From Candidatus Iainarchaeum sp. (lineage in GTDB: Archaea; B1Sed10-29; WALL01; JAGHAM01): DNA of 6,844 nucleotides. Positions 3,778-6,844 of this stretch are shown here, piece after piece. The stretch is from positions 1 through 6,844 of the forward strand of contig JAGHAM010000034.1 in NCBI GenBank assembly GCA_021161465.1. The letters run 5' to 3'. Position 1 is the stretch's first letter; each line of letters starts with the position of its first letter. A program made the position numbers and the translations under genes. A model generated the notes under the pieces. That model did not search any database, had not been told where the DNA came from, and saw only the letters and a program-made list of their open reading frames with translations.

Positions 3778-3814
3778 TTCTTCACCTGTTACTATAATAA
3801 TGCGGGGGACGAGA

Positions 3815-3863
3815 TTCTCAACCCACAGCCATCTGCAGGTTTAGAAAGGGTGCAACCCTTCTT
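3815..3863 (-). other. tRNA-Leu intron 2, T loop 59/60, 49 nt
   Basis: Outer helix is the T stem GCGAG/CTCGT. The central helix is TTCA with TGAG (3820-3817), the bulges AAA and AAT. Excision leaves TTCAAAT. It contains a hairpin around AAGGG-TTGCA-CCCTT and a second one closed by AACC/GGTT. Positions 3833-3862 are identical over 30 bp to two segments of the tRNA-Ser intron. Confidence 0.85.
3833..3862. repeat. 30-bp copy of the T-loop intron repeat (in tRNA-Leu)
   Basis: Identical to plus-strand 6701-6730 and 6779-6808 in the tRNA-Ser intron. The core is an inverted repeat, AAGGGTGCAACCCTT. Relative to the Ser copies, about 14 bp (GGTGCAACCAATCT) is missing between this segment and the exon junction; the loss is bounded by TCT on both sides, which fits deletion between short direct repeats. 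Confidence 0.95.
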
Positions 3864-3911
3864 TTTGAACTCGCGCAGGCACTAAGCCACAAGGCCCTCA
3901 ACCTTGCTCGT

Positions 3912-3940
3912 TTGGCCACACTATACGATAGGTATAGCTT
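3912..3940 (-). other. tRNA-Leu intron 1, D loop, 29 nt
   Basis: Excision joins GGTCAA to ACGAG, giving the usual Leu D-loop ending GGTCAAA followed by the D stem. The proposed fold has central helix GGTC/GGCC, AAA bulges on each side cut AA|A, and an inner hairpin CTATAC-CTATC-GTATAG. The outer D stem is separated by an internal loop, so this is a relaxed BHB. The hairpin's own loop is not a usable anticodon loop, because no T precedes a plausible triplet. Confidence 0.75.
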
Positions 3941-3979
3941 TTGACCGCTCCGACACCCCCGCACGTTTACATTCTGTTT

Positions 3980-4780
3980 TCATTTGTTTTTAATTTTTGC
4001 TGCACCAAGCTCCTCCTTCATGATTTTATTCCTGTTCCTGATGATTTCAAGCGCTTTCTCTAGGGTCTCCATCGCGCTGAGGGAACCATTTGTTTCAAGT
4101 TTGAACACAAATGAAGTCCTGTCTTGACTTATCTTTAGATGTTTTGATTCGTCAACACAGTGCATGCACATGGTGCACTCCCATGGCTTTTCTAGGACAA
4201 GTGTGCCTTTTTTCAACCCTAGTGCCTTCTTTGGGCAAATCTTGACTAGTTCTTTGGCATTCTCTATCTTGCCATCGACTTCGAGCACGGGGAGCATTTT
4301 ATATGATGCATTCCCTGCTTGCCATTTAACGTGATTTTCACCTTTTCCTAGTATGGCCTTTGCTTCCAATCTTAGTCTCTGGCCATCCAGTAACTCCACT
4401 ATTGGTATCTTCCCGCTAACTGGCTTTACCTTTGGGTCGTTTGTGTGTAATGCAGAGGAATAAACCATCTTAGGTCCAATTTCATCTATGGTTAGGGTAA
4501 CACTGCTAGTGTGACTCTCTTCTTTTCCGTCTTTTGGTATCCTATACATCTTTAAGTCAGTTGTTAGGGGTATTAATGCCAACCTGTGTGCTAAGTACTC
4601 ATCAAATAAAGGAGATGTGTTTTCATAGAATATCACTTCATCTATTGCCATGACTGGAACTTCAGCAAGAACGGTCCTCCTTAAAGCATTAACAAAAGCA
4701 GGTTCTGTCCCAGTTAACAAAAGCTCTAAGTAGTTTTTCTCCTGCTTTAACAGCTTAATCTTTAACTTATTGGACTTCAC
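3980..4780 (-). CDS. rpoD: RNA polymerase subunit D (Rpb3 homologue) with Fe-S motif
   Basis: Archaeal RNA polymerase subunit D, the alpha/Rpb3 equivalent that dimerises with subunit L and nucleates assembly together with N and P. This is not the bacterial sigma factor of the same symbol. The 266 residues show the alpha-type motif [21 protein letters not shown] near residues 29-49 and [11 protein letters not shown] near 65-75. An inserted ferredoxin-like domain carries Cys182 (ICPKKAL) and CTMCMHC (Cys202, 205, 208), enough for one [4Fe-4S] cluster, as in several archaeal D subunits. A dimerisation helix, [18 protein letters not shown], lies near the C terminus. The start is GTG at 4780, overlapping the rpsK stop codon as GTGA, with GGAGG just upstream. 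The stop codon is followed after 17 nt by tRNA-Leu. Confidence 0.97.
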
Positions 4781-5166
4781 ACTCTCCTCCCCCTTTTGCC
4801 TCCTTTGGGTCTTGTACCATCATGTGGTATTGGTGTGACATCCTCTATTCTTCCTATTTCTAATCCAGCTCTGGTCAGTGCCCGTATGGATGCCTGTGCA
4901 CCAGCACCAGGTTGTTTTGATTTGATTCCTCCTGGAGCCCTTATTTTAACATGTACACCCGTTATCCCTTTAGATATTGCCTCTTCTGCAGCCCTTTGGG
5001 CTGCAGCCATTGCAGCGTAGGGGGAACTTTGCTTACTATCTGTTTCTGTAACCATGCCACCCGAGCATTTAGAGATGGTTTCAGCACCAGTTAAATCTGT
5101 TATCGTTATTATGGTGTTATTTGAGGAGGCATAAATATGGGCAACGCCCCACTTCCTATCTTTCAT
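4777..5166 (-). CDS. rpsK: 30S ribosomal protein uS11
   Basis: Archaeal S11 (129 residues), on the 30S platform near the E-site mRNA exit. Typical segments are [22 protein letters not shown] near residue 7, [30 protein letters not shown] near 34-63, [10 protein letters not shown] and [43 protein letters not shown]. It overlaps rpsD upstream (ATGA) and rpoD downstream (GTGA) by 4 nt each. The S13-S4-S11-RNAP-alpha/D order is conserved from bacteria to archaea. Confidence 0.98.
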
Positions 5167-5723
5167 TGTGTCTCCCCTCCTGCCTTAGGGATTTTTGGTT
5201 TAGTTTCCACTTCAGTAACAGGGACTGCAACTTTTTTCTCTTCTATAGAAGGTGCTTTGCCGTAATAACCTATCTGGCCCTCCTCTTCCACCTTTACGAT
5301 GTAGCCAGGAACTGTTACTTTTCTTCCGTTTATCGCTATATGTCCGTGCGTTATAAATTGCCTTGCTTGCTTTATACTTCTGGCGAGGCCTTTTCTATAT
5401 GCAATTGTCTGTAAGCGCCTCTCAAGTAGGTCTTTAACATCAAGGGCTAAGACTTCATCAAGTCCTCCCTCTTTTACTAACCCAATCCTTTTTAGGTTGT
5501 CCATGAGTATTTGCTCTCGTCTGACCCTGTTTTCAGTCCTATCTGCCTGTATGGCTCTAGCCTGGGCTCTAAAGTTCCTGACTTTACTCTTGACCTTCCA
5601 AACTTCCTTTTTGTTCTTTAATCCATATTCATTGAGAAGCTTGTTCTCTTCCTCAATCCTGCCTTTTTCAAAAGGATGTCCAGGGGTTGAGTATTTTTTC
5701 TTTAATTTCCTTGGATGCCCCAT
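5163..5723 (-). CDS. rpsD: 30S ribosomal protein uS4
   Basis: Archaeal S4 (186 residues), a primary 16S rRNA binder in 30S assembly. The start [26 protein letters not shown] is typical of the archaeal/eukaryotic S9e-type S4 and lacks the zinc Cys cluster of some bacterial forms. The S4 RNA-binding domain spans roughly residues 104-165 ([38 protein letters not shown]). The C-terminal 25 residues, rich in Val, Pro and Lys, look disordered. A GAGGT ribosome binding site overlaps the rpsM stop codon region, and only 4 nt separate the two genes. Confidence 0.98.
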
Positions 5724-5727
5724 CTAA

Positions 5728-6228
5728 TTACCTCTTTTGAGCTTTCTTCATCCTGGCAGTCTTCTTAACTCCGACAGTTGCTCCTTTCCTGCCTGATGTC
5801 CGTGTTCTTTGCCCTCTGACAGATAACCCTACCTGGTGCCTTATGCCCTTGTAACTTCTGGTTTTCTTCTCTATTGTAATGTCCTCTTTAACCTTGAAGT
5901 CGAGTTCGTGGCCAGTTAAATGGATATCTTTTCCTGTTTCTCTAGATTTTCTCCTGTTTAACATGAAGCTGGGTATGCCATATTTTGATGGGTCTGCTAT
6001 TATGTCCGAAAGCACTTTGATTTGTTCTTCGGTTAGTTCCCCTAACTTGGTTTGCTCAGCTACTTTGAACTTCTCACCAAATTTCCTTGCAATGGCGTTT
6101 GCAAATGAAAAGCTTATTCCCTTAACGCCAGTTAATGCTCTTGCTATAGGATAGCTACCATTAAGGTCTTTATCTGCTATCCTAACTATGTGTTCCATAT
6201 ACTCTGGTTTCTTTTTCTCTCCAGACAT
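5728..6228 (-). CDS. rpsM: 30S ribosomal protein uS13
   Basis: Archaeal S13 (166 residues), in the 30S head, contacting the P-site tRNA and the inter-subunit bridge. MEHIVRIADKDLNGSYPIARALTGVKGISFSFANAIARKFG near residues 11-50 is the helix-two-turn-helix region, and GIRHQVGLSVRGQRTRTSGRKGATVGVKK near the end is the tRNA/rRNA-binding tail. I use ATG at 6228 (MSGEKKKPEYM), preceded by a GTGAT ribosome binding site 6 nt away; the internal Met11 has no such site. It is the first gene of the operon, downstream of a TATA box and an 82-nt leader. Confidence 0.97.
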   Translation of the reverse strand: MSGEKKKPEYMEHIVRIADKDLNGSYPIARALTGVKGISFSFANAIARKFGEKFKVAEQTKLGELTEEQIKVLSDIIADPSKYGIPSFMLNRRKSRETGKDIHLTGHELDFKVKEDITIEKKTRSYKGIRHQVGLSVRGQRTRTSGRKGATVGVKKTARMKKAQKR

Positions 6229-6310
6229 GTAATCATCACGCTACTTTTTGGGCATATACTCTCAGAAGCAGACGTTCCGAGGTCAGTGCCACTAGGGCTC
6301 GCCCGTGCGT
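6229..6310 (-). promoter_or_regulatory. Structured 5' leader of the rpsM operon
   Basis: The stretch between the expected transcription start (about 6307-6310, judged from the TATA box) and the rpsM ATG can fold as a closed structure. ACGC at the 5' end (6310-6307) pairs with GCGT (6241-6238), and GGGC (6304-6301) with GCCC (6253-6250). Inside is a 7-bp hairpin CTCGGAA/TTCTGAG with the 7-nt loop CGTCTGC (plus-strand 6261-6281). The closing helix includes two bases of the GTGAT ribosome binding site, so the fold could limit access to it. Autoregulation by a ribosomal protein is known for such operons, but here it is only inferred. Confidence 0.5.
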
Positions 6311-6329
6311 ATTATTTTGCATTAACTCC

Positions 6330-6337
6330 TTTATAAA
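6330..6337 (-). promoter_or_regulatory. TATA box for the rpsM ribosomal operon
   Basis: The palindromic box TTTATAAA overlaps the stop codon of the zinc-ribbon gene and is preceded on the minus strand by CCAAAAGCA, a plausible purine-rich BRE. An archaeal start site 24-27 nt downstream falls at about 6307-6310, where the structured leader begins. It is the best promoter candidate in the window for the 12-gene run down to MEMO. Confidence 0.7.
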
Positions 6338-6519
6338 TGCTTTTGGTTTTTCTTCTCATACCTGTCTTTTAGCTTCTCAGCTAGTCTCCCGTCCTGTATT
6401 ATTATTGGCCCCCTGTAGCCGCAGTTCTTGCACTCATAGTAATTAGCGGTTGTCCCAAGTATTCCATAAATCAACTCAGTAGAGCCACAAACTGGACAAA
6501 ACTTTTTTTCTTTTTCCAT
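6331..6519 (-). CDS. Small zinc-ribbon protein, function unknown
   Basis: A 62-residue basic protein with two knuckles, FCPVCGS (Cys8, Cys11) and YECKNCGYRG (Cys30, Cys33), spaced as in a single zinc ribbon, then a short strand PIIIQDG and a charged tail LAEKLKDRYEKKNQKHL. No signal or membrane segment. Zinc ribbons of this size are common among archaeal transcription and translation accessory proteins, and the position ahead of the ribosomal operon would fit, but I cannot name the family. The start ATG at 6519 has a weak AGGT about 7 nt upstream and lies 26 nt after the tRNA-Ser 3' end, so it may share the tRNA-Ser transcript. Confidence 0.85.
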   Translation of the reverse strand: MEKEKKFCPVCGSTELIYGILGTTANYYECKNCGYRGPIIIQDGRLAEKLKDRYEKKNQKHL

Positions 6520-6592
6520 TTTTCAGACCTGCTTTAAACAAAGAGCGCGGAGGGTGGGATTTTCCAACCCAAGCGGATTGCATAGCAATCCT

Positions 6593-6668
6593 TGCAGGTT
6601 TAGAGGTTCGTTCTCGACCATAGGTCCAGAACGTGTGCAACCCTTCTGGTGCATTTTGTGCACCCATT
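6593..6668. repeat. Degenerate third repeat copy interrupted by hairpins
   Basis: Two blocks of the 48-bp repeat are recognisable: TGCAGGTTTAGA (6593-6604) and GTGCAACCCTTCTGGTGCA (6635-6653). Between them lies an extra hairpin segment (6605-6634), and after them TTTTGTGCACC forms a second extra hairpin with the preceding GGTGCA. The repeat has been invaded or has expanded at its hairpin loops. Confidence 0.8.
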
Positions 6669-6697
6669 CTCCCTGCGTATCGGGTGGCCTTGTGCCA

Positions 6698-6745
6698 CCC
6701 CTGCAGGTTTAGAAAGGGTGCAACCCTTCTGGTGCAACCAATCTT
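6698..6745. repeat. 48-bp direct repeat, copy 2 (tRNA-Ser intron)
   Basis: Perfect copy of 6776-6823, separated from it by a 30-bp unrelated spacer (6746-6775) that itself holds a GGATG/CATCC hairpin. It is not preceded by TTCA, so it does not look like an independently spliced intron. Confidence 0.97.
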
Positions 6746-6775
6746 CCTACAATCGGGATACGGATGATATTCCAT

Positions 6776-6823
6776 CCCCTGCAGGTTTAGAAAGGGTGCA
6801 ACCCTTCTGGTGCAACCAATCTT
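6776..6823. repeat. 48-bp direct repeat, copy 1 (tRNA-Ser intron)
   Basis: Identical to 6698-6745 with a 78-bp period. On the minus strand it starts at the 5' splice junction. It holds two small hairpins with TTGCA loops, GGTTGCACC and AAGGGTTGCACCCTT, and ends in AAACCTGCAGGGG. Confidence 0.97.
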
Positions 6824-6844
6824 TTTGAACCCACGCGGGCTTGC

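Follow-up and report, generated by a model that had tools for sequence, protein, structure and literature searches.

The transposition of similar introns between tRNA genes is established for Thermoproteales (Fujishima et al. 2010, as presented in the reviews PMC4033280 and PMC4090602). As far as those reviews describe them, these archaea have similar introns in different tRNAs, noncanonical sites that include position 59/60, bulge-helix-bulge (BHB) ends, several introns per gene, and intron gain after species divergence. Multi-intron lineages have been described with (alpha-beta)2 or epsilon2 endonucleases (PMC4033280), and the noncanonical introns of archaeal Richmond Mine acidophilic nanoorganisms (ARMAN) are cut by an epsilon2 endonuclease (PMC12397907, PMC4033280). 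The published maxima are three introns in a single gene and 71 introns in 46 tRNA genes, the latter in Pyrobaculum calidifontis, which has the most among the assessed complete genomes (PMC8450103). Here, we analyze a 6,844-nucleotide (nt) stretch of “Candidatus Iainarchaeum” sp. DNA (contig JAGHAM010000034.1; here, the window), in which the genes for tRNA-Leu, tRNA-Pro, and tRNA-Ser are all interrupted in the T-loop, and compare it with the rest of its genome. The parallels with Thermoproteales are similar introns in different tRNAs, noncanonical sites that include 59/60, ends with the potential for BHB pairing, several introns per gene, and apparent gain after divergence. Our best reading is large-scale intron transposition of the Thermoproteales kind in a separate archaeal lineage. 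It is very likely that these are archaeal BHB tRNA introns specialized for position 59/60, which spread copy by copy through nearly the whole tRNA set. What is unusual here is the near saturation of one site, the concatenation of introns, and a predicted alpha4-like endonuclease.

The window is contig C34 of a 40-contig DPANN metagenome-assembled genome (MAG) of 976,286 bases (93% complete; here, G000). As each of the three genes is interrupted, ARAGORN reported 0 tRNAs in the window; over the entire genome, just seven tRNAs scored above the cutoff in an Rfam tRNA search. A custom finder was therefore built on the T-stem 5′ strand, TTC, the matching T-stem 3′ strand, and the acceptor halves. 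Reading of 82 T-arm-like sites with their surroundings recovered 43 tRNA genes or parts thereof genome-wide, a set from which tRNAs with unusual T-arms may be missing. At least 37 of these 43 genes carry a T-loop (59/60) intron, with lengths from 13 to 321 nt (49 to 264 nt in the window).

As the original prediction stated, the window T-loop introns (tRNA-Leu, positions 3815 to 3863; tRNA-Pro, 2318 to 2373; tRNA-Ser, 6560 to 6823; all on the minus strand) occupy the same 59/60 site. The 30-mer common to the Leu and Ser introns is exact at 3833 to 3862, 6701 to 6730, and 6779 to 6808, and the GGATTG...CAATCC hairpin shared by the Pro and Ser introns is exact at 2333 to 2349 and 6575 to 6591. 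The proposal that all three represent one intron family holds for Leu and Ser (family A), whereas the Pro intron belongs to a variant (here, variant C) that is tied to family A chiefly by the hairpin. Likewise, the Ser intron does contain the 30-mer twice, but it is an array of three units in a gene of which only the 3′ part lies in the window.

The proposed genome search for the 30-mer yielded 14 copies at up to 3 mismatches (a reversed control pattern yielded 0), each situated just 3′ of a T-loop TTC and none outside tRNA genes, where wide occurrence would have spoken against the original interpretation. Clustering of the 37 introns by local alignment (linking threshold, 17; shuffled maximum, 13) assigned 17 tRNAs to family A with variant C and 14 to a second family (family B, including the two-unit type B2), leaving six singletons. 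At least 25 exact nt are common to 73 intron pairs, involving 25 tRNAs, and the longest string common to introns is 109 nt, compared with 11 nt in shuffled introns. Genome-wide, a 15-base core of family B has 19 exact matches, every one of them within a T-loop intron of a tRNA; mismatched core candidates on contigs C3, C18, C40 (near 41860), and C5 lie outside tRNAs and are probably chance matches. Of 13 exact matches to the GGATTG-CAATCC hairpin, 12 are in T-loop introns and 1 is in the anticodon-side intron of tRNA-His; two further copies have one mismatch, one in the T-loop intron of tRNA-Gln(TTG) and the other a short distance downstream of tRNA-Ala(GGC). Intron-like hairpin modules of the A/C type also occur outside the mature tRNA, immediately after the 3′ ends of tRNA-Ala(GGC) (C21, ~8140 to 8200), tRNA-Ala(CGC) (C28, ~180 to 250), and tRNA-Ile(GAT) (C16, ~28255 to 28290).

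Short, hairpin-rich repeats of this kind could also be imagined as nonintronic palindromic elements, resembling repetitive extragenic palindromes (REP) or miniature inverted-repeat transposable elements (MITE), that inactivate tRNA genes. This is scarcely tenable: every 30-mer copy sits at one exact tRNA position with BHB-compatible ends, and the hosts seem to be the sole genes for almost every isoacceptor, so that their loss would not be survivable. Intron removal restores a T-loop of TTCAAAT, TTCGAAT, or TTCAAGT in the 37 genes. Using the BHB definition of a 4-bp helix between two 3-nt bulges, we computed, with the splice at 59/60, that TTCR (positions 54 to 57) pairs with TGGA, TGAG, TGAA, TGGG, or CGAA before the 3′ bulge in 31 of the 37 introns (3′ bulge of 3 nt in 16 and, relaxed, of 4 nt in 15). 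By our own arithmetic, such a central helix is expected by chance in about 1 of 32 cases (random tetranucleotide, two registers). Because TTCR and the purines that follow it are nearly universal, an intron 3′ strand such as TGGA, TGAG, or TGAA can form this helix in any tRNA, in line with the earlier suggestion that a TTCA helix is usable throughout the tRNA set. An Rfam scan of the window gave no match except a subthreshold CRISPR repeat, so no group I or group II catalytic core was recognized. That match (CRISPR-DR31, 2340 to 2369) overlaps the hairpin of the Pro intron and is attributed to chance.

Introns are 82 to 89% identical in cases where the mature host tRNAs are only 61 to 64% identical, and those of tRNA-Gly(TCC) and tRNA-Gly(GCC) have 64 of 64 nt in common. 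Because the introns are more alike than their host tRNAs, they appear to have moved independently of the genes, and because the T-stems of the recipients differ among tRNAs, little exon sequence seems to travel with the intron. A comparison with G001, a relative of the same family but another genus, points in the same direction. For 25 matched tRNAs, a T-loop intron exists only in G000 in 12 cases, in both genomes in 10, in neither in 3 (Tyr, Pro-TGG, and Leu-TAA), and only in G001 in 0. The 12 are Gly-GCC, Gly-TCC, Phe, Lys-TTT, Asp, Pro-CGG, Pro-GGG, His, Arg-TCG, Val-CAC, Glu-CTC, and Ser-TGA (Ser matched by isotype). Where both genomes have an intron, family and site agree in Leu-GAG, Ile-GAT, and Gly-CCC, and the other seven of the ten differ. 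Movement, as originally proposed, is supported for the window Pro and Ser introns, which are absent in G001. The Leu intron has a G001 counterpart (same site and architecture, 75% identity) and may be inherited from before the two genomes separated; the Pro intron looks newer. Across most other members of the class, the T-loops of the syntenic tRNA-Leu and tRNA-Pro are uninterrupted, and some have short, unrelated T-loop introns. General sharing of the introns by relatives with ordinary divergence, which would have spoken against movement, was not observed.

An older origin must be weighed here, namely, that many tRNAs had ancestral T-loop introns, which are homogenized by ongoing gene conversion and were lost in relatives. 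The presence of family A-type introns in Leu-GAG, Ile-GAT, and Gly-CCC of both genomes, which dates the family to before the split, and an identity that is higher within the genome (0.79) than between genomes (0.59) are compatible with such concerted evolution. However, it requires 12 losses in G001 versus 0 in G000, it has to account for the uninterrupted tRNA-Leu and tRNA-Pro T-loops across most of the class, and introns present in both genomes are mostly of a different family (e.g., Ala-CGC, Leu-CAG, Arg-CCT, and Arg-TCT). We regard it as improbable.

Since tRNA genes are common integration sites, integrating viruses or plasmids with an interrupted tRNA 3′ end at their attachment site are another conceivable source. 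Such a model has been published for one locus, the intron in Caldiarchaeum tRNA-Thr that is borne on a phage attachment site (attP) (PMC3293823), where, as here, intron gain was seen by comparing close relatives. The Caldiarchaeum case concerns a single locus and an integrase, whereas many loci are involved here and no link to a mobile element was found: viral contigs contain no exact family A 21-mer or family B 23-mer, and no integrase-like open reading frame (ORF) was noted in the window. Delivery of this type would leave unexplained the tandem units and the occurrence of one sequence family in many unrelated tRNAs, which makes it very improbable.

Spread within single genomes may have occurred more than once in the class. 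Pattern searches found different T-loop insertions that recur inside G011, G012, G013, G015, G017, and G018, which suggests that independent expansions took place and gave several members of the class their own repeat families. G011 has an identical 56-nt stretch at two places. A scan of GTDB r220 contigs for a 21-mer found none, although the source genome and its very near relatives are perhaps outside that set. The single match in a relative (G008; 3 mismatches) lies beside a tRNA-Leu in a structured stretch, not in a T-loop, and was rejected; the first 250 bases of G008 contig C17 contain repeated CTCTCAACGTCCGCGAGCCGACGTGACGGCTCT pieces and an A-like core. Apparent T-loop introns were also observed in the uncultured archaeon S5B5_HD70, a Methanomicrobia MAG, Micrarchaeota, Woesearchaeota, and Nanoarchaeota.

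Many long introns are head-to-tail strings of whole units (hairpin, linker, and second hairpin) of up to 321 nt. In the B2 arrays of five tRNAs, identity between tRNAs is 98% for the first units and 78% for the last; the respective values for family A arrays are 82% and 55%. We read this 5′-to-3′ gradient as a sign of successive insertion at the 5′ junction, with the youngest unit probably the 5′-most. The longest array, of 321 nt, is in a tRNA with a TAT anticodon (Ile-UAU; C40, 52793 to 53222), a tRNA that is uncommon in archaea. As for the arrays alone, it is possible, but not probable, that the tandem units arose within one intron by replication slippage or unequal crossing-over. The arrays of two tRNA-Ser genes (Ser-a and Ser-b) are distinguished by a single whole unit, which suggests that unequal recombination also acts on arrays, and in Leu-CAG a 54-nt unit is duplicated almost exactly. 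Yet adjoining units in one array are of different subtypes, the same ordered subtypes recur in the arrays of different tRNAs (Ser, Gly-CCC, and Ile-TAT), and the unit boundaries look like intron ends. Slippage and unequal crossing-over probably work on arrays that have already formed.

The repeat families, their sites, the BHB pairing potential, the presence/absence pattern, and the order of units in the arrays are direct observations; the account of splicing and of the direction and mechanism of movement that follows is our inference from them. The endonuclease EndA would make its cuts in the two bulges, after which the exons would be joined by a ligase. An existing intron would be copied into the T-loop of another tRNA, anchored at its 5′ side by GGGTTCRAA together with the 5′ hairpin of the intron, and such anchoring would explain why the 5′ parts of the introns are nearly identical and the 3′ parts variable; gene conversion or template switching has this property, as reverse splicing might too. 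In a T-loop that is already interrupted, a whole unit would be added at the 5′ junction, giving rise to a head-to-tail array. For the copying step, our leading guess, with about an even chance of being right, is a DNA route in which gene conversion or template switching starts from the shared T-arm. An RNA route comes second and is plausible, if doubtful: excised intron RNA would enter by reverse splicing or trans-ligation, and its complementary DNA would then recombine. Tentatively, the introns might even be viewed as a self-propagating RNA parasite that has no protein of its own, in which excised introns re-enter T-loops (including interrupted ones) by means of the host ligase and a strict alpha4-type endonuclease and stack head to tail.

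Several points weigh against spread by copying of BHB introns. (i) One related genus cannot tell gain from loss at each site, a limit that is softened because the reverse case is 0 and because the Leu and Pro introns are missing from most other members of the class. tRNAs were matched by anticodon and acceptor sequence, and Ser-a and Ser-b are without a named anticodon. (ii) The likeness of introns within the genome could stem partly from homogenization of older introns, and the gradient in the arrays could stem partly from 3′ ends having adapted individually to the T-stems they adjoin. (iii) The introns of Trp, Gln-TTG, Ala-TGC, His, and Val-TAC do not fit a helix with a 3- or 4-nt bulge, and that of Val-GAC has a 2-nt bulge; splicing and the form of the mature tRNAs are deduced from sequence. 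(iv) An arm-swap test for compensatory change gave only a weak signal in the family B hairpin (−17.4 against −15.4 kcal/mol, the own arm not always being the best). Covariation in a mixed family B alignment was uninformative, the alignment being poor.

Alignment to the mature tRNAs of relatives gives about 87 insertions of at least 9 bases in 40 genes (one in nine genes, two in 18, three in ten, and four in three), an approximate total, as some of the references are of another isotype. Thus, the genome resembles P. calidifontis in its high intron load and seems to surpass both published maxima, that for a whole genome and, with apparent four-intron genes versus a maximum of three, that for a single gene; the firmest four-intron case is the window tRNA-Pro. 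Similar processes in Thermoproteales, as suggested originally, provide a fitting parallel in kind but not in host, which here is a DPANN archaeon; T-loop sites dominate here (at least 37 of 43 genes), and arrays reach 321 nt, a difference seen through reviews only, so that arrays may occur there as well.

The tRNA splicing endonuclease is a PF01974 match (E values of 9.7e-32 in G000 and 2.2e-32 in G001). It has a single domain of ~170 amino acids and aligns over its full length with the Methanocaldococcus jannaschii enzyme (1a79). No second EndA-type subunit was found in G000 or G001, but a missed subunit is possible as G000 is 93% complete. By its sequence, the enzyme is predicted to be alpha4-like, not (alpha-beta)2 or epsilon2, and in this it differs from those of the multi-intron lineages. 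ARMAN are also archaea of ultra-small size whose tRNAs have introns at unusual sites, but their enzyme is a three-unit epsilon2, in contrast to the M. jannaschii-type EndA of 170 amino acids here. An alpha4-like enzyme in this genome would challenge the link between many noncanonical introns and a relaxed enzyme. Models of copying can be put to the test here, given the many young and nearly identical introns, a same-family genome in which sites are filled or empty, and layered arrays in which the order of the units may reflect one insertion after another. The genome offers a natural setting in which to study the movement of tRNA introns. No published report of this system was found, a weak sign of novelty given that most subscription journals were outside the search.

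The tRNA genes of the window occupy intergenic gaps and are all on the minus strand. tRNA-Leu(GAG) (3802 to 3962; custom finder and reference alignment) lies between the genes for L18e and RpoD. In addition to its 49-nt family A intron (central helix TTCA/TGAG), alignment to intronless tRNA-Leu references places a 29-nt insertion on the D-loop side (approximately 3911 to 3939). tRNA-Pro(GGG) (2305 to 2521) has four apparent introns by alignment to its intronless ortholog in L030. Besides the 56-nt T-loop intron (variant C, from the hairpin match and splice-site analysis), these are, with approximate boundaries, a 32-nt D-loop intron (2470 to 2501), a 27-nt anticodon-loop intron (2430 to 2456), and a 30-nt intron near 43/44 in the variable region (2390 to 2419). 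Without the four insertions, the gene is 72 nt long and 93% identical to the L030 ortholog. The tRNA-Ser part (6547 to 6844) was recognized by reading the sequence together with that of contig C20; the contig end cuts the gene in the variable arm, its 5′ part is off the contig, and C20 carries a compatible 5′ part of tRNA-Ser(TGA). The 264-nt intron consists of three head-to-tail family A units, with the hairpin at 6575 to 6591 in terminal position. The translated ORFs, also on the minus strand, include what we take to be a ribosomal-protein/RNA-polymerase cluster with S13, S4, S11, RpoD, L18e, L13, S9, RpoN, S2, and proteins resembling MEMO1 and mevalonate kinase. Among named relatives, the S4 protein is closest to that of a Diapherotrites archaeon (63%).

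Repeats are not confined to the T-loop. Another repeated intron, beginning with GCAAAATCGGTTRRCGCTTT, exists at D-loop/anticodon positions in Ser-TGA, Gly-GCC, Ala-CGC, Ala-TGC (two in tandem), Glu-CTC, and Ser-GCT, and other tRNA sites may therefore also host mobile introns. A 27-nt piece, AGAACCTACGGTTCCGATACMTCCCTT, is common to the anticodon-side introns of Arg-TCG and Gln-CTG.

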